From positions 1 through 28,856 of IMG/VR virus record IMGVR_UViG_3300020172_005130: DNA of 28,856 nucleotides; one strand, 5' to 3'. Position numbers and translations under genes: made by a program. The notes below the pieces were generated by a model. The model did not search any database, was not told the DNA's origin, and saw only the letters and a program-made list of their open reading frames with translations. This stretch comes from a virus. Shown one piece after another: positions 940 to 26,227 of the stretch; the stretch's first letter is position 1, and every line of letters begins with the position of its first letter.

Positions 940-1317
940 AAATTTCAACTGAGTTGACTTCACACTGATATTACACTATTACAGAGGCGGTCAGCCGGTA
1001 CCTCGAAGTGCTGTCTTTATCTGACGGCGGGTTCATTCATACATATCAGCGCACAAATGTCCGTAGGGTTCTTATCCCTTCTTTAGCCTATTTTTCCATT
1101 GCTCAAACATTCGAAATCGGTTTTATGAAGGCATATCCGATCATCATCCACAACACAAGGTGTGGGTAGTCAAATGAGTCATTGCTTCAGCACAATTGTT
1201 TCCATCTACGCGAAGAACATTCCGTATCTCTGGGCACTATTTTTCCTTACCAGTGCGAGTTTTATCTGAAGTGTATTGCCTAATGATATGCCTGAGATTG
1301 AGCCTTAATATGTGACT
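940..1317 (-). ncRNA. Candidate structured non-coding RNA
   Basis: About 380 nt without a credible gene on either strand and visibly richer in GC than its surroundings. A good sigma70 promoter (1318-1346) points leftward into it. The leftward transcript contains several hairpins: GCACT...AGTGC near 1225-1255, CCACACC...TTGTGTTGTGG near 1140-1165, ATCGG...CCGAT near 1110-1140 and GGG-ATAAGAA-CCC near 1065-1080. I found no RNase P, 6S, SRP, group I or group II signatures. A weaker plus-strand promoter (954-982) also points into it, so strand is not certain. It could also be decayed coding DNA. Confidence 0.4.
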
Positions 1318-4935: not shown

Positions 4936-5076
4936 TTATTTTTTTGATACTAATAAATCCCAGATAGCAATAACACCTAATTCTATAAAACTAATAAGTG
5001 AAACTCCCAAAATTATTAATAATAGAAACAATGACATTATCATTGATATTGGGTTCAAACATTTTCGCGTTCTCAT
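4936..5076 (-). CDS. 46-aa single-pass membrane protein
   Basis: ATG at 5076 preceded by AGGAAG with good spacing; stop TAA at 4936-4938. The protein has a short basic N-terminus (MRTRKCLNP), one long hydrophobic span 'IMSLFLLLIILGVSLISFIE' and a short end (WDLLVSKK). It starts just after the TAG of the cyclase C-terminal fragment, so the two are coupled. I recognise no family. The overlapping rightward frame at 4925-5122 lacks start signals and is rejected. Confidence 0.65.
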   Translation of the reverse strand: MRTRKCLNPISMIMSLFLLLIILGVSLISFIELGVIAIWDLLVSKK

Positions 5077-5083
5077 AAACTTC

Positions 5084-5350
5084 CTATTTGGTTTTTGCTA
5101 CGTAAATTCCATTCCAATCTAATGGACATTCCCCAGAAATACGTTCTAACATTAATTGATAATAATGTTGAAGATCACCAGATTGTTCCGCTAGATATGT
5201 ACAAATAACGGCAGCAGATTTCCAGTCTCCGGCATAATATGCTTCAAGATATAATTGATGTTCTGGCAACGTATTGGCTATTGTATAGATACGAATACCT
5301 TCAGATTTGCCCTTAACTGCAACGCGATCAATTTCTACATAATCACACAT
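5084..5350 (-). CDS. C-terminal fragment of a class III adenylate cyclase, expressed separately
   Basis: An 88-aa frame starting MCDYVEIDRVAVKGKSEGIR, the beta6-beta7 end of a class III nucleotidyl cyclase catalytic domain, followed by a helical region and an ending 'CPLDWNGIYVAKTK' typical of the C-terminus of CHASE2/FecR-associated adenylate cyclases (P-x-DW-G-Y). The rest of the cyclase is 6229-7980, separated by the endonuclease gene 5402-6166. The fragment has its own ATG with GGAG eight bases upstream, so it may be made as a separate subunit rather than being dead. Its stop is TAG, one of three in the window. Confidence 0.8.
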   Translation of the reverse strand: MCDYVEIDRVAVKGKSEGIRIYTIANTLPEHQLYLEAYYAGDWKSAAVICTYLAEQSGDLQHYYQLMLERISGECPLDWNGIYVAKTK

Positions 5351-5401
5351 AATATAAACTCCATCCAATGTAATTTACAGATATAGATTTACGGTTGTAT
5401 T

Positions 5402-6166
5402 TTAACACTTTCCCCTCCGTTTACCTTCATTACTCACACAAGATACCCATTCGGATAAGTTTTTATCAATAATATTTAATTGGCTCTTATATTCAGACAC
5501 AGACATTCTTTTACTGACTCCAGAAAGATTTATAACAGCTGTCAATCCTTTTATTTGAAAATTATGAGTACCTACAGACATCTGCTGTTGTCGTTTAATT
5601 TTTGCAGATTCTAGTTTTTTTGTTTTATGTTCTTCTGATAAAAAATGATGAGTCCCATCAGCAACTCTTCTTTTTTGATATTCACTCGATTTGGTACCAT
5701 CTAAAAAATTATGTGTCCCATCCAACACTCTCTTTGCGTTTGTTTCAGGACCTAACAAATTATGAGTGCCATCTAATACCCTTTTTCTACTGGCAGCTCC
5801 TTGAATTTCACCGGATAATAGATGATGAGTATAATCATTAACTCTATCTTTTTGATATTTTATTATATTTTTATACCCATCTTCTGAAAATATACCAGCT
5901 CCACCACCAGTTTCCGGTATTCTATTTAAAAATTCACTAGAATTTGAAACGTGCCAAATAGTACTATAAAATCTACCCCATAAATTCAATTCTTTATTGG
6001 AATTACACTCTTTAATTATTTCGGTAGTTACATTATTTCCGTGAAGTTTTAGATGTTCTATCCAATCTACGCCAGAACCCTTATATTTGTACGGGTTTTT
6101 GATAGTTTTACCTAGATATTTTAATTTGGTAATGTTATGTTGTTTTATATATAAATAAATGGTCAT
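5402..6166 (-). CDS. GIY-YIG-type homing endonuclease (SegE-like) inserted in cyclase gene
   Basis: A 254-aa protein from ATG 6166 (AGGAG upstream; the open frame extends to 6208 only through a TTG). The N-terminus 'MTIYLYIKQHNITKLKYLGKT' and 'PYKYKGSGVDWIEHLKLHG' match the GIY-YIG-derived SegE-type nuclease fold, as in the gene at 14619. The C-terminal half is built from repeats of (V/A)DGTH(N/H)(F/L)L at about residues 115-200, likely a minor-groove DNA-contact region. It lies exactly between two halves of an adenylate cyclase gene. There is too little flanking sequence (~65 nt and ~50 nt) for a self-splicing intron, so it is a free-standing insertion. Confidence 0.85.
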   Translation of the reverse strand: MTIYLYIKQHNITKLKYLGKTIKNPYKYKGSGVDWIEHLKLHGNNVTTEIIKECNSNKELNLWGRFYSTIWHVSNSSEFLNRIPETGGGAGIFSEDGYKNIIKYQKDRVNDYTHHLLSGEIQGAASRKRVLDGTHNLLGPETNAKRVLDGTHNFLDGTKSSEYQKRRVADGTHHFLSEEHKTKKLESAKIKRQQQMSVGTHNFQIKGLTAVINLSGVSKRMSVSEYKSQLNIIDKNLSEWVSCVSNEGKRRGKC

Positions 6167-6233
6167 GCTGATACTCCTTACAGTATTAGAATAGGTGGAT
6201 ACTTGCAATATCGCGACCTATATTCTATTTATA
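6167..6233 (-). promoter_or_regulatory. T4-late-like box and hairpin leader of the endonuclease
   Basis: TATAAATA (6226-6233 on the minus strand) equals the T4 late promoter consensus and overlaps the stop of the cyclase N-terminal part. It is followed by an imperfect hairpin (ATATAGGT ... ACCTAT) and AGGAG-TATCAGC-ATG. The second endonuclease (14619) has the same order: GATAAATA, a hairpin, AGGAGG-ACATCAGC-ATG. Confidence 0.5.
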
Positions 6234-7980
6234 TATTTTCTATTTTTAATCTATTAATAGTATTTTCACTTAAGATTAATGAAACACCATAACTTTTTGT
6301 CTGACCTTCAAGCCTTGCAGCAAGATTTACTTCATCGCCAAGAATATCATAACTAAATCGTTCGGATGAACCCATATTACCGATGAAAACTTCCCCTGTG
6401 CTGATACCAGCTCCTACTCGTAATGGTTGTTTTCCTTCAGCTAATAATTCATTATTTAATTCGTTTAACGCAATCTCCATCTCTACTGCAGATTTTAACG
6501 CCATACTTGCATGATTTTCAATATCGATAGGTGCCCCCCACCAAGCCATAATAGCATCACCTATTAATTTCCCAACTGTTCCGTCATTTTTCATTATAAT
6601 TGGTAACATTTTATCCATGTATCTTGTAATAAGATTGGTCAAACCCATTGGATCTGTTTTATAATGCTCAGATAATGTTGTAAATGACCTGATGTCAGAA
6701 AAATAAATACTTAATTCTTTAGATTCGCCACCTAATTTTAATAACTCGGGATTTTGTTGTAATTTCTCAACCATTTTCGGACTTAAATAAGTACCAAATT
6801 GTTTTTTGATTTGTTGTTTTTGGAAGAATTCACTCAGAAATTTCACACCGTAAGCGTGAAGTCCTACAAGTACGATACCACTTACAAATGCAGTAATATC
6901 AAACAGGTACAGATATTCGGTGAATACGTACTGACTCCCTATAATTGAACCAATTGATAACACAATTACAGAACTTAATCCAATATAAATCCATCTTGTG
7001 AGGAATAATAACAGTGTACCAATAACAAGTAAAGCTAAAATTTCAGCGCCATCTGCATAATCAGGTCGTTGTATGACAACCTTATTCATCATGGTACCAA
7101 TTATTGCTGCTTGTGCTTCATGTGGAAAAACAGCACCTTTGGATGTTGGGATAGGATTTCCAATACCTGCTGCTGTTGGACCAACGATGACTATTGAACC
7201 TTCCAAATCATCTGGAATATTAGATAAGCTTATACTTTTTGATGATTGACTCCAATCAATCCATATACGACCTAGGTTATCAGTTGAAATAGGTCCAAAT
7301 GCTGGAATCCTCATCTTTTCGACACCGAGTTCATTTAGTTTTACTTGAAATGATGAATCACCTGCTGCCACCCTTAGTGTTTCCAAACTTAATGATGGAT
7401 AAAGTTTATCATTTACTGAAATTATGAGAGGCATTCTACGATTAACACCATCAATTTCTGGTAATGTATTAACAGTGCCAACACCAGCCGCCAAATCTTC
7501 AATTTTTTGAATATTAGCAATAATTCCTGGATATTGGATGATACGATCTATGTATTCTGGGCCTAATACCGCAGAACCTGGTACTTTTGGTGTATTTTTA
7601 GAAACATCTGATGGAATATTTGGTAAAATAACGGGAAATGATGCTAATGCATTTGATAAATCATTATCACCACCTTGACGATCTGATTCTGGCATCAGGA
7701 CGTTGAATACAACTAACCCTGCACCATGATCATACAAGTTTTTGATTATATCTGCATAGATAGTTCTCTTAAATGGCCATTGACCATACTTATCTAATGA
7801 AGATTCATCTATATTGATTGTAAAGATTGAATTTACATTTGAAGGCTTGGATGTAATTAAAGTATCAAAATAACGTAATCTTACACTTTCTACAAATGAA
7901 GGATCAGATACCCTGGTACCAGCTACCAATAATAATGTTAATAATGCAGTCCAAGGACTTAAAAGAATTTTTTTAATCAT
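6229..7980 (-). CDS. CHASE2-domain adenylate cyclase, N-terminal part
   Basis: A 583-aa membrane enzyme predicted to make cAMP. An N-terminal TM (about 8-22) precedes a CHASE2 extracytoplasmic sensor (about 30-300; 'DTLI', 'NIDESSLDKYGQWPF', 'GAGLVVFNVLMPE'). Three TM spans (about 310-385) follow, then a class III cyclase domain. Visible catalytic features are metal Asp in 'YFSDIRSFT' and 'KLIGDAIMAWWG', adenine-specifying Lys (GKLIGD) and Asp (YDILGD), and transition-state Asn/Arg in 'VNLAARLEG'. The frame stops after 'NTINRLKIENI', just before the last strands of the domain, which are encoded at 5084-5350 beyond the inserted endonuclease gene. Its ATG overlaps the TGA of the upstream ATP-grasp gene. 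Activity would need reassembly of the two parts. Confidence 0.85.
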   Translation of the reverse strand: MIKKILLSPWTALLTLLLVAGTRVSDPSFVESVRLRYFDTLITSKPSNVNSIFTINIDESSLDKYGQWPFKRTIYADIIKNLYDHGAGLVVFNVLMPESDRQGGDNDLSNALASFPVILPNIPSDVSKNTPKVPGSAVLGPEYIDRIIQYPGIIANIQKIEDLAAGVGTVNTLPEIDGVNRRMPLIISVNDKLYPSLSLETLRVAAGDSSFQVKLNELGVEKMRIPAFGPISTDNLGRIWIDWSQSSKSISLSNIPDDLEGSIVIVGPTAAGIGNPIPTSKGAVFPHEAQAAIIGTMMNKVVIQRPDYADGAEILALLVIGTLLLFLTRWIYIGLSSVIVLSIGSIIGSQYVFTEYLYLFDITAFVSGIVLVGLHAYGVKFLSEFFQKQQIKKQFGTYLSPKMVEKLQQNPELLKLGGESKELSIYFSDIRSFTTLSEHYKTDPMGLTNLITRYMDKMLPIIMKNDGTVGKLIGDAIMAWWGAPIDIENHASMALKSAVEMEIALNELNNELLAEGKQPLRVGAGISTGEVFIGNMGSSERFSYDILGDEVNLAARLEGQTKSYGVSLILSENTINRLKIENI

Positions 7981-8888: not shown

Positions 8889-10004
8889 TTATTGACCTTG
8901 CTGTACAGTAATCTTGGGGCATCCACCTGTAGTAGCACAATTAAAGTTAATAGAATATGATTGTTGTGTACTACCACGTTGAGAAAGACTGAAATCAGTC
9001 GGTTGTCCAGATAAGGTAATTTTACCCATATGACTACCGGAACCTTGTTGTAAAGTATCAATGTGTTTATCATCACCATTTACATCAACTTCTAAATAAT
9101 GATTGCCATTATCTTTCTGTTGTAATGATAATGAATTACTATTACCATTTACATGGGTAAAAATACCTTTAGTACCACCAGTACTTTGTTGTAATAAGGT
9201 TGCAGAATTATTATTTCCTAGTATAGTTAACTCTGTATAATTTGATGAATAATTGGAAGTAGAAGATTCAGTTATTGAAACCGCATTATTAGAACCATTT
9301 CCGTAATATTCTATATAATTATTTTTAGTACCAGATTGATTTATTGTTATGGTATTAGAATTACCAATTTGTTCTATATAAACTTGGCTATCAGATGTAG
9401 CTCTATTAATAAATGCTTGTACATTAGCAACATTAATTGAATTTGGATTAAAACTGGCAGATGAACCTCCGCAACAAAGTGTTGGTACAAAGAAACTAGA
9501 AGAAGTAGCTAAATTATTAGTAGGAACAACTACTATTCCACTACCAATATTCCAATCTAATTGTAATACCGCACCACCACCATTTTCATACCACCATATA
9601 TCTATAGAATATACTTGACCAGCAGTCAATGTGATAGTACCTGAACCGTTAAAATTACTAGGACCTTGTTCTACCCAATTATTAATAACTAGTGTATTAT
9701 TGATAATCATATAAAATCCATCATCACTGCGATCATAAAATGTTACAGTTTTATTTCCTGAAGAACCAGGCCATAGAATACTACCAGTAAAATGGATGAT
9801 TACGCCATCAACCATTCCAGAATTCATTACATTCCCACCACCCCAATCATAGTTTAATGATGTAGCAATACCAGTTTCAAGAACAGTTCCATTAGTAGTT
9901 CTACTTGGAGTTGCACCACCCGCTGCATAAATAGTGTAATCTAAACCAGCTACTCCGGAAGCCTGAACATTTATACAACAAAGTAATAAAATAATATATT
10001 TCAT
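8889..10004 (-). CDS. Secreted PA14-domain / curlin-repeat fusion protein
   Basis: A 371-aa protein. A signal peptide (about 1-15, MKYIILLLCCINVQA) leads into a PA14-like beta-sandwich (about 20-155) with 'GSSGNKTVTFYDRSDDG' and 'LTAGQVYSIDIWWYENGGG'; this fold usually binds glycans. A linker with a Cys-Cys pair follows, then six to eight curlin-like repeats (about 205-371) of type Q-x-G-N-x-N-x3-I-x-Q, for example 'VYIEQIGNSNTITINQSG'. The C-terminus ends in VQQGQ. The simplest reading is an amyloid-forming subunit or cap that carries a sugar-binding head, exported by the CsgG-like pore encoded in the same operon. The start overlaps the stop of the FecR/curlin gene (ATGA). Confidence 0.8.
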   Translation of the reverse strand: MKYIILLLCCINVQASGVAGLDYTIYAAGGATPSRTTNGTVLETGIATSLNYDWGGGNVMNSGMVDGVIIHFTGSILWPGSSGNKTVTFYDRSDDGFYMIINNTLVINNWVEQGPSNFNGSGTITLTAGQVYSIDIWWYENGGGAVLQLDWNIGSGIVVVPTNNLATSSSFFVPTLCCGGSSASFNPNSINVANVQAFINRATSDSQVYIEQIGNSNTITINQSGTKNNYIEYYGNGSNNAVSITESSTSNYSSNYTELTILGNNNSATLLQQSTGGTKGIFTHVNGNSNSLSLQQKDNGNHYLEVDVNGDDKHIDTLQQGSGSHMGKITLSGQPTDFSLSQRGSTQQSYSINFNCATTGGCPKITVQQGQ

Positions 10005-11095
10005 TTTTGTTGTAATACTCCTGTATTTTGTATAATATTTACTACATTACTACCTGGGCTACCATCACCGATTAACGTAGAAGCATTTATGCTATTTTGC
10101 ATGATATTAATGATAGTATTTGAATTATATCCTTGAGTTTTAATTTCTGTATAGTGTTCATATGGTGCTATACGGAATGCAGTGCCTTTTCCACGTTCTT
10201 GCGCTGAATCACCATTTTTATCCCATATAACACATACACTAGAAACAGCATTACATCCTAATTTACCGGCGGCTGCTAACATAGCCAACATTCTTGCTTC
10301 ATCTATTGCTTCTGCACTTTTTGCCACTTGATTAGCTAACCTACGAGCTGCTTCTGCTTCAATTTCTTCTAGTTCCTTGTCTCTAGGTGATTTAGCTGCT
10401 TCTTTCATAGCACGTTGGACTTCGATTGGTTTTACAATAATTAAGTTATTTGAAATTTTGGATTCAATGGTATTAATTGGTGTAGGTGGTGTTGGTAACA
10501 TAGTTGCACTCTGGACATAAGTTGCTTGAAATGCTTCTTCTAAAGATACTTTTCCAGCTAATGTTTCAACCTCTATTATACCTACTTTACACTTGTTTTC
10601 TTCTAGCTCGTATTTTTTAACATCTTTTTCATCTTTACAACTTGGAACCAATACAACTAGACTTTGACCAGCTTCGTCAACTGTCATTGTGAAATCCGTA
10701 CCCCTAACTGCAATAGCTGCTGTTGGTGTTTTTATATTAACTTGTTGAGGATTATTTTTAGCAATCTGTCCTGATGCATATCTTACAGTACCCATTCCTA
10801 CTTTGAGTGCTAATTTACCTGCGTCACTTGCCTTTGGATCGAAAACAAAGTCGTCTATAAGAAGACGACTATTTTCTGTTACTTTTACTTTTGTATCATC
10901 TTTAAATGTGATATTGCTAATACAACTACCGGTAATGTAAACATCCATGCTTTCGATAGATGAACCTTTATCGCCTGATATATTTTGTTTATTTCTTTCT
11001 ATTTTACAATTAGTACTAGTTACATCAGAAACAGTACCAATTGCTGCTTCTACCTTGATAGATAATAAACAAAGTATTACCACAATTATAGGCAT
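10001..11095 (-). CDS. Secreted FecR-domain protein with C-terminal curlin-like repeats
   Basis: A 364-aa protein with a signal peptide (about 1-18). A FecR-like domain (about 45-160) shows 'KVTENSRLLIDDFVF', 'KVGMGTVRYASGQIAK' and the hallmark 'VNIKTPTAAIAVRGTDFTM'. A long Glu/Ala-rich helical section with 'ELEEIEAEAARRLANQVA' (about 235-275) follows, then a C-terminal pair of curlin-like strands ('SNTIINIMQNSINAS', 'NVVNIIQNTGVLQQK'). FecR domains in this setting lie outside the inner membrane and often neighbour CHASE2 cyclases in bacterial genomes, which suggests the operon was taken from a bacterium. It might be a nucleator or linker for the amyloid fibre. Confidence 0.8.
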   Translation of the reverse strand: MPIIVVILCLLSIKVEAAIGTVSDVTSTNCKIERNKQNISGDKGSSIESMDVYITGSCISNITFKDDTKVKVTENSRLLIDDFVFDPKASDAGKLALKVGMGTVRYASGQIAKNNPQQVNIKTPTAAIAVRGTDFTMTVDEAGQSLVVLVPSCKDEKDVKKYELEENKCKVGIIEVETLAGKVSLEEAFQATYVQSATMLPTPPTPINTIESKISNNLIIVKPIEVQRAMKEAAKSPRDKELEEIEAEAARRLANQVAKSAEAIDEARMLAMLAAAGKLGCNAVSSVCVIWDKNGDSAQERGKGTAFRIAPYEHYTEIKTQGYNSNTIINIMQNSINASTLIGDGSPGSNVVNIIQNTGVLQQK

Positions 11096-11097
11096 AA

Positions 11098-11895
11098 TTA
11101 TCTTGCAATGGCTGATTGTGAATTCACTATTGCACTTGAACTGGTTCTAATAGTAATAGTATTATTATCACCGGTTGTTTTCATATCTATAGTGGTATCA
11201 TTAGTTCCTTGTTGTTGTGTAGTAATAGCATTATAATTACCTGCTATAACTTCTTTCAAATAATGACCTGTTGCACCAGCTACATCACTTTGTTCAACAT
11301 TTAATAAGTTATTAGCACCGGTAATACTGATAGTAGATGTACCATTAGTACTAGATAAGTTTTCAGTGACTTGGTTATTACTACCTGTGATAGTTAATGT
11401 GCTTGTAATATAATTACCGATAATATTTTGCATTACGTTATTTGTATTTCCTGTAATGGTTTCTGTTATTTCAACATGTTGGTTATCAGAATTGTTGGTA
11501 TCACCGACTACTACTCTATTTTTATTGTCATTGCCAGTTACGGAGATGATATAGCGATTATTACCACCTTTGATATTATATTGTGCCCAGTTATTATTAC
11601 CATGTTGAGTTATATTTAAAATATTACTACTACCGTTGATCGTTGCATAGTTGGCTGCACTTCCTGGATCTGGTGAATTAATGGTTATATTTGTTGTTTG
11701 ATCAGTTGTAATAGTTCCTGCCACACCGCCAACATTATTAGTTCCACCTACCTGCTCTATAGTAATTGTATTTGTATTCCCTAGTTGTTCTATGAATACA
11801 TTGTTAGGACCAGTAGCAGTTCCAACAGCCATAGTTAAACCAGAAAACAATAATACTGATACTGCTATTAAATAATTCAATATTTTTTGTTTCAT
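11098..11895 (-). CDS. Curlin-like amyloid subunit (CsgA/CsgB type)
   Basis: A 265-aa secreted protein. The start is ATG 11895, supported by TAAGGAG nine bases upstream; the open frame extends further without meaning. A signal peptide (about 1-23, ending GLTMA) is followed by about ten imperfect repeats of the curlin pattern, for example 'NVFIEQLGNTNTITIEQVGG' and 'NILNITQHGNNNWAQYNI', rich in Asn, Gln, Thr and Gly and lacking Cys. It is longer than E. coli CsgA (151 aa). CsgA versus CsgB cannot be decided. It sits between csgG and the FecR/curlin fusion. Confidence 0.85.
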   Translation of the reverse strand: MKQKILNYLIAVSVLLFSGLTMAVGTATGPNNVFIEQLGNTNTITIEQVGGTNNVGGVAGTITTDQTTNITINSPDPGSAANYATINGSSNILNITQHGNNNWAQYNIKGGNNRYIISVTGNDNKNRVVVGDTNNSDNQHVEITETITGNTNNVMQNIIGNYITSTLTITGSNNQVTENLSSTNGTSTISITGANNLLNVEQSDVAGATGHYLKEVIAGNYNAITTQQQGTNDTTIDMKTTGDNNTITIRTSSSAIVNSQSAIAR

Positions 11896-11908
11896 TTTAA
11901 TACGCTCC

Positions 11909-12706
11909 TTATTGTTTAAACGCCCAATGCCCTTTACGAGCTCCTTCACGAATAGTATCTACTACTGCAGCTTGGATAGCCTTATTAGTTGCTCTATTAA
12001 TACTTTCGTTTATACTACCACCGATTTCAGCTTCGATTGCTTTGGTATCAGCAGCAATAAATCTTAATACACCTAATTTATCCATATAACTTAATACAGT
12101 TTTGGTGACTGTAACTGATGTCAATATTTCACCTGTTGTTACTGAAACTGTTCTAAGGCTTACTGTTACCGTATCACTTTGATATTGTGTTTCACCACCT
12201 ATTCCAAAAATCCTAACACCTGCTCCTCCGGTTAGTGTATTTGAATCATAACCTACAATTGCACCTTCTGCAATGATTCCAGCGAATAACATTGCTGGTA
12301 ATGGTTGTGCATCTTTTCCTTGAAATTGTTCACGAGCTTGTCGGATCATTTGTCGTTCTTTAATTAAATTTTCTAATCCTACTCTTTCAACTACGGTAAA
12401 CCATCTTGCATCACCTACGTCTTGTAATCCTTTAATCAAATAATTTTCTGCACCTTGTGTAACGGCTGAACTTAAACTTGCTATATTTGGCATAGATTTA
12501 CGTTGACCAGTTTTATCTGTAAATCCATATACTGCGATAGGAATAGGACCAGATGCTGGTGGTTCTAATTTATTTTCTTCTTTTTTTAGGTATTTGCTTT
12601 CTTCAACGATTGGATCATCAAACTGTTCACCGGTAATAAGTTTATTAATAGCACTACTAGTAGCACATCCTTGTAAAAGTAACATTAAAAGTATAATATA
12701 TTTCAT
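11909..12706 (-). CDS. csgG: CsgG-like curli secretion pore lipoprotein
   Basis: A 265-aa outer-membrane lipoprotein of the curli secretion channel family (E. coli CsgG is 277 aa). A lipobox LLLQGC gives a mature N-terminal Cys (residue 14). The conserved CsgG core is clear: 'IPIAVYGFTDKTGQRKSMP', 'WFTVVERVGLENLIKERQMI', 'LFAGIIAEGAIVGYDSNT', 'GGAGVRIFGIGGETQYQSD' and 'VTVSLRTVSVTTGEIL'. The nonameric pore would export the curlin-like proteins encoded downstream. CsgG homologues are known in some aquatic phages. It begins two nt after the csgF stop. Confidence 0.93.
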   Translation of the reverse strand: MKYIILLMLLLQGCATSSAINKLITGEQFDDPIVEESKYLKKEENKLEPPASGPIPIAVYGFTDKTGQRKSMPNIASLSSAVTQGAENYLIKGLQDVGDARWFTVVERVGLENLIKERQMIRQAREQFQGKDAQPLPAMLFAGIIAEGAIVGYDSNTLTGGAGVRIFGIGGETQYQSDTVTVSLRTVSVTTGEILTSVTVTKTVLSYMDKLGVLRFIAADTKAIEAEIGGSINESINRATNKAIQAAVVDTIREGARKGHWAFKQ

Positions 12707-12708
12707 AA

Positions 12709-13188
12709 TTAAAAATAAAATGTCCCTGCTGGTACTTTCATTGTAGTAGTCTGATTGATATTGCTGTTATTAGTAATGCTTATAATAATCATACCTTGAT
12801 CAGACCCTGAACCCAAACTCCATGATACATTATTTCCACCTAGATCTGGCATTGTTCCACATATTGCACCTGGTGTTGTACATGATGAACCTTCACTGAA
12901 CATACTGTCAGTTAATTGCTTTGCTAATTGAGAATATATACGGGATTCTAAATTAGCTAAAAACTTTGCTTGTGGTGTATTCTGAGCATCTGATAATGCT
13001 TTTGCTTGTAATGCATCCGCTGCCGCTTTATTTTTATCAGTTGCTTGAGTTTCTAATTGATTAAGTGTTAAGACATGCGAACTATATCCAACACCACTAA
13101 ATGATGGACTATTAAATGTATGTTGCAGTTCAGCTGAATATGTATTATTAAATATTAATAATAATAAAAAACCTATTAATTTAGTCAT
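12709..13188 (-). CDS. csgF: CsgF-like curli assembly factor
   Basis: A 159-aa secreted protein (E. coli CsgF is 138 aa). A signal peptide (1-18, ending TYSA) is followed by the CsgG-plugging region 'LQHTFNSPSFSGVGYSSHVL', close to the conserved CsgF N-terminus (F-x-NPSFGG), an Ala/Gln-rich helix, and a beta C-terminal part with a Cys pair (SSCTTPGAICG). CsgF seats in the CsgG pore and couples nucleation to secretion. No CsgE, CsgC or CsgD gene is seen in the window. Confidence 0.9.
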   Translation of the reverse strand: MTKLIGFLLLLIFNNTYSAELQHTFNSPSFSGVGYSSHVLTLNQLETQATDKNKAAADALQAKALSDAQNTPQAKFLANLESRIYSQLAKQLTDSMFSEGSSCTTPGAICGTMPDLGGNNVSWSLGSGSDQGMIIISITNNSNINQTTTMKVPAGTFYF

Positions 13189-13242: not shown

Positions 13243-13917
13243 TTAATCTGACGGGAACAAGCAATTTGCTACATATAAGGATGCTTGTTCTTCTGATAGT
13301 CCTAAATTCATTAGGACTCTTGGGTTGTGTGGATTAAGTCTTTGATTCTCAATATAATAATGATGGTTAGCTGAAACATCAACTATTGTATTGTTTGTAT
13401 ATATTAATGATGATAGGTATGCATTTAATGTTGCTGAAACAGTACTTAATAATTGTTCTAATTCATCATCTGATTGTACATTTCCAGCTGCAATAATAGA
13501 ATCTGAGAAGATTCGTTTACCCCAATCTGGTAATTCACGTTTTTTATTCCATTCTAATTTATCCGATTCTTCTTTAAACCAACTTGATAAAGAATGATCG
13601 GGGATAACCGGACTGAAATCATGAAAACATCCTGTTATTTTATTTTTACCTGCAAATACATCAAATCCAAATATTGGTGCTGGATTGTGGTAATGTGGGT
13701 AAATGCAACAATGCATCATCCACAGTCCGCGAGTATTCATGACATCAATTATATTAACGTGAGCTTTTCTATACAATGAAGATACCCAGGTCGTATTAGA
13801 CCAACCTGGGTTATTAAATTGTTCAGCTACGGGATCAGAAATTTCTTCACCTGATTGCTTAAAGTTATCAATGAATAAATGCTGTATATCTGTAAGAGTA
13901 CATAACAGTTTATTCAT
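13243..13917 (-). CDS. Ferredoxin-dependent bilin reductase (PcyA/PebS/PcyX family)
   Basis: A 224-aa protein of the FDBR family, which reduces biliverdin IXalpha to phycobilins with electrons from ferredoxin. The diagnostic stretch is 'LWMMHCCIYPHYHNPAPIFG' followed by 'FDVFAG' and 'GCFHDFSPV', which carries the His and Asp expected in the substrate pocket (H in MMHCC, D in FGFD). It starts inside the end of the heme oxygenase gene (8-nt overlap), so the pair forms a heme-to-bilin pathway. Phage versions include PebS (cyanophages) and PcyX (marine phages of presumed non-cyanobacterial hosts). With no other cyanophage traits here, PcyX-like is favoured. The product bilin cannot be read from sequence alone. 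Confidence 0.88.
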   Translation of the reverse strand: MNKLLCTLTDIQHLFIDNFKQSGEEISDPVAEQFNNPGWSNTTWVSSLYRKAHVNIIDVMNTRGLWMMHCCIYPHYHNPAPIFGFDVFAGKNKITGCFHDFSPVIPDHSLSSWFKEESDKLEWNKKRELPDWGKRIFSDSIIAAGNVQSDDELEQLLSTVSATLNAYLSSLIYTNNTIVDVSANHHYYIENQRLNPHNPRVLMNLGLSEEQASLYVANCLFPSD

Positions 13918-14488
13918 GACCCATCAACGGTAACACAGATTCAAATAATGCAGACGCACTAAGAGCCTTCATGATTTTAATAGCCCATTCAAATGCTACT
14001 CTTGCTTCGTCACCTAAATCATCAGTAAGTTCCGCCCGAATTGCATTTCTAAGACCTTCGACATCATCGAATTGGTAAAACTTACCAGAACCTGGTACAG
14101 TTTTAGCAATATATTGCCCACCATTTAATGTCCCGAGGTGATGAACATAAAAATGTGCTTTTATTAAATGTTTTCTATTTGGGTCATTTAATAAATCTTG
14201 TAGATATCTAATATATTCTAATGTTTCCGGTAACCATGAATAATGGGTATCTTTGTCAGCTAATTCAGTAAAATCTTGGTAGATATATTTTGTTCTATCA
14301 ATACCCGGTGAATTTGAAAAAAATTCTTGGACTTTGACACCAAACTCAATAGTCGAGTATATTGGGATCATTTGCCAAAGATAATTTATATATAATTCCT
14401 TTGGTAATTTACCTGAAATGGTTAATTTCATAAAATTAGTTTGTTCAGCTTTTGTGTGTAAATCTTTTGTATATTCACGTAATAACAT
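13910..14488 (-). CDS. ho1: Heme oxygenase (biliverdin-forming)
   Basis: A 192-aa protein of the HO-1 family, which opens heme to biliverdin, iron and CO. The proximal heme-ligand region is 'DLHTKAEQTNFMK' (His about residue 11). The distal-helix motif reads 'HHLGTLNGGQYIAK', where the common form is GDLSGGQ: the Asp that organises distal-pocket water (Asp140 in human HO-1) is Thr here, while the glycines are kept. Plant-type enzymes also lack this Asp, so activity is not excluded. It is the first gene after a consensus promoter and overlaps the bilin reductase gene, which would use its product. Confidence 0.9.
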   Translation of the reverse strand: MLLREYTKDLHTKAEQTNFMKLTISGKLPKELYINYLWQMIPIYSTIEFGVKVQEFFSNSPGIDRTKYIYQDFTELADKDTHYSWLPETLEYIRYLQDLLNDPNRKHLIKAHFYVHHLGTLNGGQYIAKTVPGSGKFYQFDDVEGLRNAIRAELTDDLGDEARVAFEWAIKIMKALSASALFESVLPLMGHE

Positions 14489-14551: not shown

Positions 14552-14618
14552 GATAAATAAAGATGTAGTTCACGGAATTGGCGTTCCCAACTACACTAAC
14601 GTCTAGGAGGACATCAGC
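14552..14618 (+). promoter_or_regulatory. Leader of the second endonuclease: late-like box, hairpin, strong RBS
   Basis: GATAAATA (14552-14559, one base from the T4 late consensus TATAAATA), then GTAGTT...AACTAC hairpin, then AGGAGG with ACATCAGC before ATG. Same order and near-identical last bases as the leader of the endonuclease in the cyclase gene. Confidence 0.45.
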
Positions 14619-15332
14619 ATGTGTATTTATACAGAAATACCACCAACATATCTTTATATTAAAAAACATTCAATCACTGGCTTAAAATATTTTGGTAAGA
14701 CTAGTAAAAAAGACCCGTACAAATATCTAGGGTCAGGAACTCGTTGGAAACGACATATTAAAAAACACGGAAGACAATTTGTAGAAACATTATGGGTTTC
14801 GGAATTATATTATGACACATCAATTATTGACCATGCTTTGCATTTTTCAAATGAAAACAATATAGTATTGTCAGATGAATGGGCAAACTTGGTATTGGAA
14901 AATGGAATTGATGGTGCTATAAAAGGCACTAAGTTTAGTGATGCACACAAAGAAAAAATGTCATACTTGAGAAAAGGTCGTCCAGGACATCCGCATTCGG
15001 CTGAAACCAAGGAAAAATTATCAATTATTGGAAAAAACAGAGCACCAGCATCTATTGAAACACGTGCAAAGATGTCTGCATCTAGGCAAAATGTTTCTAA
15101 TGAAACTAGATCTAAATTGAGTGAGGTTTGGAAAGGCAGAAGACATAATGTGGAGACCAGAAAAAAGCAATCTGATGCTCATAAAGGAAAAATAGTATCA
15201 CCGGAAACAAGAGCAAAGATGTCTGCTATATGGAATACTAGAGAACCTGTTATATGTCCACATTGTAATAAATCTGGAAGAAATAATATGACCAGATATC
15301 ATTTCGATAATTGTAAATTAAAATATCAATAA
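14619..15332 (+). CDS. GIY-YIG-type homing endonuclease with NUMOD3-like repeats (SegE-like)
   Basis: A 237-aa protein. The N-terminal nuclease module 'TYLYIKKHSITGLKYFGKTS' with 'PYKYLGSGTRWKRHIKKHG' matches the SegE-type fold and is a close relative of the gene at 5402-6166. The middle (about 105-205) has several NUMOD3-like units of the form S-x-E-T-(K/R)-x-K-(M/L)-S-(A/x)-x-(R/K)-x. The C-terminus has a zinc-ribbon-like 'CPHCNKSGRNN...HFDNC'. It runs rightward between the heme oxygenase promoter and clpS, opposite to its neighbours, and ends at a strong hairpin. Its insertion leaves no evident broken gene here. Confidence 0.88.
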   Translation: MCIYTEIPPTYLYIKKHSITGLKYFGKTSKKDPYKYLGSGTRWKRHIKKHGRQFVETLWVSELYYDTSIIDHALHFSNENNIVLSDEWANLVLENGIDGAIKGTKFSDAHKEKMSYLRKGRPGHPHSAETKEKLSIIGKNRAPASIETRAKMSASRQNVSNETRSKLSEVWKGRRHNVETRKKQSDAHKGKIVSPETRAKMSAIWNTREPVICPHCNKSGRNNMTRYHFDNCKLKYQ

Positions 15333-15694: not shown

Positions 15695-16117
15695 TTATTT
15701 AATTTCAATTTGGCGAGGTTTTAATTCCTCTGGTACAACATATTCTAATGCTATTCGTAACAACCCATCTTTTACTTCTGCACCATTAACTTCCATATAT
15801 TCAGCTAATGGAAATCTAACTACAAAATTTCTAGAAGCAAGTCCACGGTGTAAATATTCCCATGATGATTCATCATTATCTTTATGCACCCCCGTGATAG
15901 TAAGAATATTCTGATCAATTTCTACATTGATTTCATCCTTACTAAAACCTGCCACTGCCAACTCAATACTGTAATTGGTTTCATTGTATTTTAAAATATT
16001 ATGTGGTGGATAATTTGATTGAGCTGTTAATCTGTTATTCACTAAACGGTCAACACCGACTAATGCTCTACTTAAACTTGCTAAAGTTGCTGTATCTAGT
16101 GTTCTTTCATTTGCCAT
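15695..16117 (-). CDS. Hsp20/alpha-crystallin small heat-shock protein
   Basis: A 140-aa protein from ATG 16117 (AGGAG upstream). The alpha-crystallin domain spans about residues 38-130: 'YNETNYSIELAVAGFSKDEI', 'VEIDQNILTITGVHKD', 'LHRGLASRNFVVRFPLAEYM' and the G-L-L-x-I motif ('DGLLRIALEYVVPEE'). It resembles IbpA and the Hsp20 proteins common in T4-like phages. It acts as an ATP-independent holdase passing clients to DnaK, encoded just upstream. A CTTG/CAAG hairpin next to the RBS could make a small RNA thermometer, but this is only suggestive. Confidence 0.9.
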   Translation of the reverse strand: MANERTLDTATLASLSRALVGVDRLVNNRLTAQSNYPPHNILKYNETNYSIELAVAGFSKDEINVEIDQNILTITGVHKDNDESSWEYLHRGLASRNFVVRFPLAEYMEVNGAEVKDGLLRIALEYVVPEELKPRQIEIK

Positions 16118-16142
16118 TGTAAAATCTCCTTGTATAAGCAAG

Positions 16143-16180
16143 AACAACCGTGAAACCCTAAAAGGCATTTCACGGTTGTT
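16143..16180 (-). terminator. Hairpin between dnaK and hsp20
   Basis: AACAACCGTGAAA pairs perfectly with TTTCACGGTTGTT (13 bp) around a 12-nt loop. It follows the dnaK stop by about 25 nt. The T-run is weak, so it may be an attenuator or an RNA-stabilising element rather than a full stop. Confidence 0.7.
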
Positions 16181-16205
16181 ATAATAACACACTATATTGT
16201 GTTTA

Positions 16206-18098
16206 TCAAACTTCTTTGAACTCAGCATTCACTGCTTGCCCACCATCAGTGGTTTCTGCAGCAGATTGTGATTGTTCAGATGCTTGTTTTTTTGCAAAAA
16301 CTGGACTTGCTGCCTCGAACAACTTAGTTACTGATTCATTGATCTTCTCAACATCATCACTGCTAGTAGCTTCATCAATGTTTTTGACTGCTTCTTCAAA
16401 TGCTGATTTTTCTTCATCTGATAATTGATCTTTCACTTCATCAAAATCTTTCTGCAAAGTATGACGTTGTGATTCAGCTTGATTACGAGCTTCAATCAAT
16501 TCTTTTTGTTTTTTATCTGCTTCAGCATTTTCTTCGGCATCTTTAACCATACGTTGGATTTCTTCTTCAGTCAGCCCTGAATCAGATTTAATGGTAATGT
16601 TATTTTTCTTGCCAGTGGATTTATCCTGTGCTGAGATATGCATGATACCGTTTGCATCAATGTCAAATGTCACTTCAATTTGTGGCATTCCGCGACGAGC
16701 AGGAGCGATTCCATCTAAGTTAAACTCACCTAATTGCTTATTGTAAGCATAAAGGTCACGTTCACCTTGCCCAACTTTAATTGTAACAGCAGGTTGGTTA
16801 TCCTCAGCGGTTGAGAAAGTTTGACTTGCTTTTGTAGGGATTGTTGTATTTTTCTGAATCAACTTGGTGAAAACTCCGCCCATTGTTTCAATCCCTAATG
16901 ACAACGGTGTTACATCAAGCAATAAGATATCAGTTTTATCCCCTGACAATACTGCGCCTTGAACCGCAGCACCAGCAGCTACTGCTTCGTCTGGGTTAAC
17001 GTCTTTACGCGGCGTTTTACCAAACAATTTTTCAACTGCTTCTTGTACCTTTGGAATTCTTGTAGAACCACCGACTAAAATTACATCATCGATTTCATCT
17101 ATTGAAACATTTGCATCCTTTAATGCAATTTTACAAGGTGCGACACTTCGTTCGATTAAATCATCAACCAAAGATTCAAATTTTGATCTAGAGATAGAGA
17201 CATTTAAATGTTTTGGCCCAGATGCATCGGCTGTTATATATGGTAGATTTACAGTTGTTTGGTTTGTACTAGACAACTCTATTTTTGCTTTCTCTGCTGC
17301 GTCTTTAAGACGTTGTAATGCAATTGGGTCATCTTGTAAATTGATTCCTGTTTCATTTTTGAATTCGGAGTTTAAATAATCGATAATACGGTTATCAAAA
17401 TCTGCACCACCTAAATGGGTATCACCATTAGTTGATAATACTTCAAATTGTTGCTCACCGTCAATATTTGCTATTTCAATAATTGAAATATCGTGTGTGC
17501 CAGAACCAGTATCCCAGATTACTACTTTTCTATCTTTGGATGACTGCTTATCTAACCCAAATGCTAAAGCCCCGGCAGTCGGCTCATTTATAATTCTTAA
17601 TACATTTAATCCGGCAATTGTTCCAGCATCTTTAGTCGCTTGACGTTGCTCGTTATTGAAATATGCTGGTACAGTGATAACCGCTTCGGATACCTCATAG
17701 CCGAGATATTCTTCAGCTGTACTTTTCATTTTTCTTAAAATTTCAGCAGATACCTGTTGCGGTGATAATTTCTTACCATTGATTTCAACCCACGCATCAC
17801 CATTATCTGCCTCGATGATTTTGTATGGAATAGATTTGATGTTATTTTGAACTTCTGCATCATTAAATTTACGACCGATTAAACGTTTAACTTCGTAAAT
17901 TGTATTAGTTGGATTTGTAATTGCTTGGCGTTTAGCCGCAGCACCTACTAAAATTTCGGTATCTGTATAAGTTACAATACTAGGGGTTGTTCGTGAACCT
18001 TCTGAATTTTCGATGATTTTATATGAACCATTATCGAACACTGATACACATGATACACCAGTTCCTAAATCTATACCAATTACTGTTTTTTTACTCAT
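16206..18098 (-). CDS. dnaK: DnaK (Hsp70) chaperone with altered phosphate loops
   Basis: A 630-aa Hsp70, close to E. coli DnaK (638 aa) over its whole length, with AGGAG before the ATG. The nucleotide-binding domain (1-380) keeps 'VKRLIGRKF' (catalytic Lys), '[14 protein letters not shown]' and '[16 protein letters not shown]'; the linker '[19 protein letters not shown]' and the substrate domain are standard, and it ends AEFKEV. Two phosphate-binding loops are unusual: loop 1 is IDLGTGVSC (usual IDLGTTNSC) and loop 2 is WDTGSGTHD (usual YDLGGGTFD), though both Asp residues and the loop-2 Thr remain. ATPase kinetics may differ. No DnaJ or GrpE gene is in the window, so host co-chaperones would be needed. 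Confidence 0.96.
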
Positions 18099-24298: not shown

Positions 24299-24348
24299 GA
24301 GTTCAATTTCTTTTCTTTTGCTTTTGTTGACACTAAGTCATATTTCAC
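24262..24348 (-). pseudogene. Truncated C-terminal remnant of a paralog of gene 23064-23615
   Basis: An open frame of 28 codons ends 'KLNSLKAKLNAFNQA', almost the same as the end of the 183-aa protein. It could start only at a GTG (24348) that overlaps the end of the endonuclease gene, and has no clear ribosome-binding site. The rest of the paralog is missing, replaced by the endonuclease gene. The likely cause is gene duplication followed by replacement or deletion at homing. Confidence 0.6.
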
Positions 24349-26227
24349 TTCTTTTATGCTTTATATATACTAGGTTCCCGCAATCCCAAATTCTATCGAA
24401 CCCATTGGCTTGCATATTCTCCCATTCTGTTTTTGTTTGGTCATAACCTGATAATAACTTGCTAAGTTTGTGTGCTTGGTATTTAATTCTTGATTCTAAT
24501 ACTCTTGAATTTTTATGATATTTGTAATTTGGTTTAGATATCTTATGCAATTCAAACCCGATTTCTTTATAGACATTTCCAGTATTCCATCTCCTATCAC
24601 AGTAACTAATTAATGATGGATAATTAAAATCTATTTCAAAATGTTTTAATAATTTACTGGCACCGCCAACTACTGAAATATCTGGTAATGTGCAATATCT
24701 TAATAATTCATATTCAGCGATTTTATTATATCTACTCTTACCAAACGTCATAACTGCTATCAATTCATCGTGATACTTTAATCCATAATGAATTGATGCA
24801 TTGCACGCGCGTTGAATATGGTTAGCATCAACAAAGCCAGCGGACTCGGCATTAGACAATTCTACTATATTACATTGTCTTGCATAAATTCTAGAACTAA
24901 TTCCTAGTTTTTGACGTATTCTTGATTTCACTAAATCTTTTTGATTATTCCATTCTGTATCATAAATTTGTATTAATGTTATACCTTGTTCTAAGCATTT
25001 TTCTAGTTTATTTAAATGATAATTTTTATCTTTATTCCCGGAAATTTCACTATGATGATACACCCCATTATATTCGATAGCCATTTTTTTAGATGGGATG
25101 AAAATATCTAACTCTAGTGGAGCTATAATAGATCTAGAATTTCTAATCATGTCATTAAACCCTAGATTTAAAATAAATTCAGCTAATTCATTCTCACCTA
25201 AAGATTTAATAAACGGGAAACAAGTTGTACATTTTGGAATTTTACCATCATCTAGGTTATCTGTAAATTCTGTATGACATGTGGTACATTTCCATAAGTA
25301 TTCTTTTTCAACATTTTCATATTCATCGATTTCAAAGAGTGGAATTACTTTTCCTTGTACACGCTCTTGAATATTATTAAAAAATGATTCTTTTCGGGTG
25401 TTGATAATTTTATCTTTATAATATACCAATTGATTGATATTTTCTACACCATATCTTTCTAAACATGTCTTTTTGGCTTTTTCAACAAAGGATGGGGATT
25501 GACTTGCATGGTATACCCCATACAAGTCAAACATAGTAGTTGATGCCTGTTGTCTAGTTTCTGGTAGTTTACTTACATTATCTACCCCATATTTTAACAA
25601 ATTAGATTGTTTAGTTTTTTCTTTAAATGTAGACAGTGTTGATGGATGTTCAACACCATATTTTTTAATATTAGTTTCTTTACGCTTTTGACAAAGTTCT
25701 GGGTTATTGGATGGATTTTCAACACCATACTTCTCTTTTAATGAAGCTACCCGTTTTTGTTGACCTTCTGTTGTTTTCCAATTATGGTCAACCCCGTACT
25801 GCATAATGTACAATTGTTTTCTTTTTTCTTTTGCTATTTCATATGAATTATTTTCTCTGGCCCTAGAAACCATTTTGTCTTTGATACTATCAACTTTCAT
25901 TGGATTTTCGACCCCATATCTTGATAAATTTGTATTTTTAGATTTATCAAGTGTCCGTTTCTTACAATAGATACACTGTTTATCATCACAGTTTAACCAT
26001 CCTATATTAATGTTTCTAAATTTTCGTTTATTATTAGAACCACAGAATGCAGAATCATTTTCATGTAAAATTGCATACACCATTTCTGGTATATTATTGG
26101 TATACGATATTGTAGTAGATAACCATGCATATAATTCATGGTTATCTCGGATAATTCTACTATATCTAAAAGGGTGTTCAATCACCAATCTTTCGATTTC
26201 AGTTTTATAAGTCTGGAAGTTCTTCAT
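24338..26227 (-). CDS. Large homing endonuclease with Vsr-like (EDxHD) nuclease domain
   Basis: A 629-aa protein. After an N-terminal region with 'CDDKQCIYCKKRT', about eight repeats of the type K-Y-G-V-E-(N/H)-P/S (residues 95-270; 'NTNLSRYGVENPMKVDSIKD', 'KEKYGVENPSNNPE') make up a DNA-contact array. A Cys4 zinc-ribbon follows ('CTTCHTEF...CTTC', about 318-340), then a PD-(D/E)xK/Vsr-like nuclease core 'LELDIFIPSKKMAIEYNGVY' + 'HHSE' with 'KCLEQGITLIQIYDTEW'. This is the architecture of EDxHD-type phage homing endonucleases (I-Bth0305I group). Its first 23 nt overlap the end of nrdB, which is intact. Confidence 0.85.
   Translation of the reverse strand: MKNFQTYKTEIERLVIEHPFRYSRIIRDNHELYAWLSTTISYTNNIPEMVYAILHENDSAFCGSNNKRKFRNINIGWLNCDDKQCIYCKKRTLDKSKNTNLSRYGVENPMKVDSIKDKMVSRARENNSYEIAKEKRKQLYIMQYGVDHNWKTTEGQQKRVASLKEKYGVENPSNNPELCQKRKETNIKKYGVEHPSTLSTFKEKTKQSNLLKYGVDNVSKLPETRQQASTTMFDLYGVYHASQSPSFVEKAKKTCLERYGVENINQLVYYKDKIINTRKESFFNNIQERVQGKVIPLFEIDEYENVEKEYLWKCTTCHTEFTDNLDDGKIPKCTTCFPFIKSLGENELAEFILNLGFNDMIRNSRSIIAPLELDIFIPSKKMAIEYNGVYHHSEISGNKDKNYHLNKLEKCLEQGITLIQIYDTEWNNQKDLVKSRIRQKLGISSRIYARQCNIVELSNAESAGFVDANHIQRACNASIHYGLKYHDELIAVMTFGKSRYNKIAEYELLRYCTLPDISVVGGASKLLKHFEIDFNYPSLISYCDRRWNTGNVYKEIGFELHKISKPNYKYHKNSRVLESRIKYQAHKLSKLLSGYDQTKTEWENMQANGFDRIWDCGNLVYIKHKRSEI

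Follow-up and report, generated by a model that had tools for sequence, protein, structure and literature searches.

A predicted phage adenylate cyclase gene interrupted by a homing-endonuclease gene and its shared RNA leader

Introduction

What becomes of a membrane signalling enzyme when a selfish nuclease gene sits inside its catalytic domain? The question is raised by IMG/VR virus record IMGVR_UViG_3300020172_005130, whose 28,856 nucleotides are referred to here as the window and in which two pieces of a cyclase gene flank a homing endonuclease gene. Phage genes split in this manner are on record: the portions of PMC2988022 available to us describe nrdA of Aeromonas phage Aeh1 (mobE), gene 60/39 of T4 (mobA) and gene 43A/43B of Aeromonas phage 25 (seg43), with functional assembly of the chains reported for nrdA and 43A/B. 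The same portions describe late promoters and hairpins that sequester the ribosome-binding site for the T4 endonuclease genes I-TevI, II, III, segB and mobE, together with an unusual seg43(25) hairpin. The original prediction for the window, made from the sequence alone, was that an adenylate cyclase gene had been split by a homing endonuclease into two translatable pieces, and that a phage enzyme making cAMP would be new.

Results

Two translatable pieces of one cyclase

The interrupted gene and its insert comprise the following features.

6229..7980 (-): N-piece, with CHASE2, TM helices and the class III cyclase domain up to its last helix; 583 aa, ATG at 7980
5402..6166 (-): GIY-YIG-like homing endonuclease frame; 254 aa, PHROG 12324
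5359..5362 (-): Shine-Dalgarno-like GGAG of the C-piece, recognised from the sequence
5084..5350 (-): C-piece, with the last beta-hairpin (EIDRVAVKGK...IYTI) and the conserved helical C-terminus; 88 aa from its ATG

Pfam places CHASE2 (2e-40) and Guanylate_cyc (2.4e-20, positions 7-156 of 183) on the N-piece. Within phrog_35576, a family of 681 positions, the N-piece matches positions 1-584 and the C-piece 597-680; because the pieces match successive parts of this family, together they represent one ordinary cyclase, with the interruption falling at residue 583 of roughly 680. The C-piece reading frame runs from 5368 to 5084 (-) and its likely start is the ATG at 5350, 8 nt 3' of GGAG, where it overlaps an endonuclease-frame TGA by 8 nt, ATGTGTGA. 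The predicted split into two translatable pieces is therefore borne out (ATG 7980, GGAG 5362-5359, ATG 5350), as is the proposal that the last strands and the C-terminus are encoded past the endonuclease gene behind their own ribosome-binding site and start codon, with the correction that the conserved VKGK also lies on the C-piece.

All seven catalytic positions, D429, K471, D475, D545, D549, N552 and R556, are found in the N-piece. We take their roles to be those of the two metal Asp residues, the Lys/Asp(Thr) pair for the base, the Asn and the Arg. The Pfam matches and residue positions agree with the original assignment of CHASE2, the TM spans and all metal, adenine and Asn/Arg residues to this piece. 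The N-piece thus carries the class III nucleotide cyclase signature; synthesis of cAMP is a prediction. In 38 hand-picked, aligned intact homologues the KGK of the C-piece motif VKGK is invariant, and all ten tail invariants of that alignment are retained in the C-piece of the window and of a second split phage, L044 (an eleventh listed tail cell is a misplaced first residue and is not counted). Of the 82 covered invariant cells of the N-piece, the window retains 78 and L044 retains 77, with stray placements at the cut end among the misses. At the transition-state Asn position, 41 of 76 phage cyclases have Asn, the split ones among them, and 35 have Ser; activity may be altered in the Ser type.

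In the structure predicted by AlphaFold2 for L057, an intact homologue (mean pLDDT 89.4, pTM 0.64), residues 574-580 form a helix and residues 586-593 a strand, and the split of the window maps to the loop between them, 581-585. The catalytic domain of the intact homologue resembles those of CyaC (1wc1), Cya2 (2w01) and CyaB (3r5g) both in sequence (E 6.5e-28 to 2.3e-26) and in fold (TMt 0.85-0.90). Each of these is a single chain, whereas the phage cyclase described here is encoded as two.

Intact, split and apparently re-fused relatives

An intact cyclase frame of 664-693 aa was found in 81 of 87 IMG/VR loci, and cyclase homologues occur in the cultured phages Melnitz and HTVC008M; in Melnitz the tail continues directly. 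The uninterrupted homologue that the original prediction called for thus exists. Among the remaining loci L066 has a shorter frame, contig ends truncate L068 and L086, and L044, L082 and L083 are split; the last three are the same stretch, identical across the gene, and represent one phage in two contigs. Two split phages, the window and L044, were therefore found.

L044 is split at the same point as the window around a different endonuclease body, of which only 72 bp align (blastn). The two phages have common flanks of 628 bp at 77.9% identity (6813-6186) and 292 bp at 78.1% (5414-5123), and the leader described below and the end of the endonuclease gene are likewise common to both. L044 also has the same 8-nt overlap of the C-piece ATG with an endonuclease-frame stop, ATGAATGA, with GGAG upstream as in the window. 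The endonuclease between the cyclase pieces of the window matches a PHROG 'intron-like DNA endonuclease' (1.1e-14), but its end, approximately the last 20 codons (to 5343), is out of frame with the main endonuclease frame, unlike that of L044. Because of this the window gene may be frame-shifted or damaged, which could disrupt coupling to the C-piece, or the assembly may contain an error.

A scan with the cyclase half of the window found L384 (83% identical), which has an uninterrupted frame. The spacing from RLE to KGK is 34 residues in 72 of 74 proteins, 44 in L384 and 48 in L088. Read in the endonuclease frame, the extra loop of L384 gives CVGWVFTYE and a stop, and the endonuclease of L044 ends in NCIGWSFSYE and a stop; GW-x-F-x-Y is typical of the C-termini of such endonucleases. 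L384 further retains the ATGAATGA of the C-piece. Aligned with the L044 endonuclease end, the L384 segment scores 38, a value reached by none of 2000 shuffles; the junction of the window bears a weak likeness to the L384 segment (score 21, reached by 130 of 2000 shuffles). L384 is apparently a re-fused allele, in which the endonuclease was lost, the frame was rejoined and the last endonuclease codons were left as a 10-residue scar. L088 has 14 extra residues at the split point (~4946-5001), with an in-frame SD-like GGAG and an ATG, and may be a second, older case of re-fusion whose scar is indistinct.

Mosaic ancestry of the cyclase

The two halves of the window cyclase differ in their closest relatives. 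In 40-aa windows starting at alignment columns 0-360 the nearest sequence is L002 or its kin (L002 0.71-0.92; L044 0.28-0.67), whereas in those starting at columns 420-540 it is L044 (0.72-0.97; L002 0.42-0.68). The CHASE2/TM half is thus closest to L002 and the cyclase half to L044. In turn, the C-piece of L044 is, from about codon 24 to past the stop, 94.4-98.5% identical over 412 bp to the intact L084-L087, and its whole N-piece is close to L085 (dS 0.28). This mosaic pattern indicates that the cyclase half, the insert and the tail were exchanged between phage backgrounds, for which homing with co-conversion is our inferred cause. The C-pieces of the two split phages have diverged with dS 0.95 and dN 0.17. 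As evidence of function since the split, dN/dS was rejected: the L044 tail was exchanged with that of an intact phage, and the ratio is not datable to that period.

A two-hairpin leader at the 5' end of the insert

The insert begins with a promoter-like site and a structured leader, and the leader recurs once more in the window.

6226..6233 (-): TATAAATA, late-promoter-like site; its TAA terminates the N-piece frame; same arrangement in L044
6153..6223 (-): leader with two hairpins belonging to the endonuclease gene (stem-loop P1, then P2 around the SD); covariance model R1, 69.6 bits, E 5.9e-22
14563..14632 (+): second leader copy, before a second GIY-YIG/NUMOD3 endonuclease; 61.5 bits, E 4.1e-19
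14619..15332 (+): second GIY-YIG/NUMOD3 endonuclease gene; NUMOD3 1.6e-10

The first leader is one of the 97 sequences from which model R1 was built; the second is not among them. We assume TATAAATA to be T4-late-promoter-like. It occurs 3 times in the window against 6.55 expected, and comparison with the reversed pattern gave no clear excess in 5 records; such counts are uninformative on their own.

The hairpin is common to the window and L044, with compensatory changes, and is not present in 84 of the first 88 loci, its bearers being L001 (the window's own copy), L044, L082 and L083. Two pattern scans of viral contigs (at least 120 rows each) indicate that the hairpin is widespread. The second scan left the stems free; among the 137 distinct matches listed, all four tested pairs of stem 1 were present in 96 and three or more pairs of stem 2 in 130. 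The model alignment consists of the window and 96 of 131 segments, a manual selection that set aside 35, some with irregular sequence following CTCTAA. Across its 97 sequences 89.8% of cells pair, compared with 65.0% after shuffling and 23-46% with slid partners, and 330 cells are changed on both sides versus 101.9 in shuffled alignments. The mean P2 stem is 4.29, as against 3.61 +- 0.07 (maximum 3.80) with the arms dealt anew. Rfam 15 gave no match to the leader at gathering scores over the whole window, both leaders included, nor at E up to 1 in L112 or over window positions 5040-6420.

Endonuclease genes follow the leader in other phages as well. Among the matches listed with distinct proteins, an ORF of at least 60 aa lies 3' of 163 of 179 hairpins (8 have no ORF and 8 a short one), mostly starting 29-34 nt behind P1. 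For 145 of these 163 leader ORFs, again among the matches listed, the PHROG 'homing endonuclease' families 314 and 655 account for 88 and 55, and Pfam gives NUMOD3 in 57, HNH in 21 and GIY-YIG in 5, in overlapping counts. The covariance model found 53 matches in 13 of 23 whole records, with up to 13 per record; five of the 53, from record G001, duplicate G002. Forty were inspected; by reading, all 40 lie upstream of endonuclease-like frames, and TAAATA stands just 5' of the leader in 33. A PHROG scan at 1e-7 of 38 of the frames, omitting one of 30 aa and one duplicate, assigned 31 to an endonuclease family and 2 to families of unknown function only, with no match for 5. A general late-gene leader was ruled out because all 40 inspected matches precede endonuclease-like frames, a test narrowed by the start codon and first codons that the model contains.

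Of 8 regions from named phages, the model detected the leader in 2. One, from Variovorax phage V45v66, has it before an endonuclease (E 1.9e-18); the match in the other, from Pseudoalteromonas phage XG4, is weaker (E 2.6e-9). A blastn search of named phages with the 73-nt leader gave no match, and the model found no leader in the whole records of Synechococcus S-SRM01 and Vibrio SRILMA. Genome contigs gave 7 pattern matches, 2 of them leader-like (L329, L330). The leader is a conserved RNA with strong covariation that stands before both GIY-YIG and HNH endonucleases and has no match in Rfam 15.

In 126 of 163 leader ORFs the opening 18 nt contain the motif TATTTA, compared with 0-3 of 160-163 at other offsets, and this site after the start codon is complementary to the upstream TAAATA. 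A T4-like read-through RNA switch, in which the start region would pair with the promoter side that only read-through RNA contains, would account for the enrichment, an explanation that we put forward as weakly supported. Complementarity at the next base is 66 versus 59.5 +- 3.1 in shuffled sets (29 of 1000 as high), that at the base beyond is 31 versus 33.7, and folding of the read-through RNA shifts accessibility little, from 0.50 to 0.53.

Gene neighbourhood

A csgF-csgG-curlin-FecR-curlin/PA14-RimK run ends in the cyclase gene. Upstream of the cyclase, at 8889-13188 (-), lie csgF, csgG, two curlin-repeat proteins (one with PA14) and FecR, then a RimK-type ATP-grasp gene; this is a curli module that includes fibre-like proteins. 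Among 85 cyclase loci, some with cut flanks, FecR was found in at least 67, CsgG in at least 42 and curlin in at least 38. The portions of PMC9599517 available to us describe a curli-FecR-adenylate cyclase module in pelagiphages with the same neighbourhood of csgF, csgG, curlin repeats, FecR and cyclase. As that module was published in 2022 and appears in annotations of cultured phages, the supposed novelty of a phage cAMP enzyme does not hold.

Other features of the window include adjoining genes for heme oxygenase and a ferredoxin-dependent bilin reductase (13243-14488, -), here in a phage with a curli module, and genes for a full-length Hsp70 (DnaK-like, 630 aa) and an Hsp20 (15695-18098, -) on the same phage contig. 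An HNH/DUF7487 endonuclease gene lies between nrdA and nrdB (24338-26227, -), and the covariance model finds no leader upstream of it. A tRNA with a CUA anticodon (2286-2360, -; tRNA-Pyl according to ARAGORN), possibly an amber suppressor, adjoins a permuted tmRNA (2443-2739, -), and the Rfam family Polynucleobacter-1 matches at 1105-1261 (-) with 69.9 bits.

Alternative explanations

A split gene could simply be a broken one, with an N-piece that is inactive or dominant-negative and a C-piece that is a decaying remnant. The frame-shifted end of the window's own endonuclease would fit such decay, and a lone 88-aa tail could survive a while by chance. However, the overlapping SD and ATG arrangement is retained in both split phages, the tail invariants are complete in both, the canonical catalytic residues are intact and an apparently re-fused open frame exists in L384; we consider a broken cyclase unlikely. 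Far less probable still is a rejoining of the pieces by an intein or by a self-splicing intron whose structure would include the leader hairpin. The insert does occupy an exact, conserved position and has a conserved RNA structure at its start, but Rfam gave no intron family over 5040-6420 at E up to 1 and no group I or II catalytic core in the whole window, only about 110 nt of the insert fall outside the endonuclease frame, and the same leader stands upstream of endonuclease genes elsewhere. The Rfam result and the frame analysis led us to reject a self-splicing intron. An intein was rejected because a stop codon closes the N-piece frame.

The interpretation of L384 has an alternative of its own: it could be an ancestral intact allele with a longer loop, at which the cassette inserted and over whose sequence the endonuclease end then evolved. 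In favour of this, L088, the next-closest intact allele (65%), has a 48-residue loop with no clear endonuclease-frame end. Against it, the loop of L384 reads GWVFTYE and a stop in the endonuclease frame and is missing from 72 of 74 proteins, so that ancestry of the long loop seems doubtful and re-fusion is preferred.

Discussion

On the evidence of the sequences, the cyclase is probably reassembled from two chains, having been split by a homing-endonuclease cassette that carries a shared late leader. The original prediction is upheld on the split, the translatable pieces, the intact relatives, the lack of an intron signal and a second split phage, and fails on the novelty of the cAMP enzyme. 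It did not extend to the RNA leader common to the endonucleases, the mosaic of domains or the apparently re-fused L384.

We propose that a free-standing cassette, consisting of TATAAATA, the two-hairpin leader and a GIY-YIG gene, entered a catalytic-domain loop of a phage CHASE2 class III adenylate cyclase. The TAA of the promoter would then terminate the N-piece, and the end of the endonuclease gene would supply the SD and start overlap for the C-piece. Late transcription of the cassette would begin at TATAAATA, placing the P1 hairpin at the mRNA 5' end, with P2 presenting the SD, and translation of the C-piece would be coupled to the endonuclease end. The chains would associate at the membrane, the N-piece contributing most of the active site and the C-piece the closing beta-hairpin with VKGK, and cAMP would be made as part of the phage curli/FecR module. 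Homing with co-conversion would have created the mosaic flanks.

The nrdA/mobE locus of Aeh1, 60/39 of T4 and 43A/43B of phage 25, as presented in the available portions of PMC2988022, likewise have a free-standing endonuclease in an important phage gene and two chains. In contrast to these, the cyclase is a membrane signalling enzyme, its endonuclease body has been swapped at a constant split and it has an apparently re-fused relative. The T4 endonuclease leaders described there also combine a late promoter with an RNA hairpin, as does the leader of the cyclase insert with its late-promoter-like site. Those portions treat the hairpins of T4 individually, whereas a single covarying leader, with bases that are conserved, is shared by GIY-YIG and HNH endonucleases in many phages here. 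In the available text of PMC9599517 the term 'homing endonuclease' does not occur, and its methods state only that split genes were merged. A search of titles and abstract openings in the open-licence literature gave no endonuclease-split cyclase and no leader common to endonuclease families.

The bulged, conserved P1 suggests a putative binding site for a common factor. More broadly, with confidence that we would call evenly balanced, the leader may belong to an undescribed transferable cassette in which a late promoter and a two-hairpin RNA are joined to unrelated GIY-YIG or HNH endonucleases, with bodies swapped at one site, timing set through a common trans-acting factor and phage proteins shaped by splitting and re-fusing.

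Few phage proteins are known to be split by homing endonucleases, and these results extend the set to an enzyme of membrane signalling. Since intact, split and apparently re-fused alleles exist in nature, assembly of the split protein and its reversal are testable side by side, and the leader in cultured Variovorax phage V45v66 makes its regulation testable. Because the leader is shared, a single RNA signal may govern many unrelated selfish nucleases in aquatic phages.
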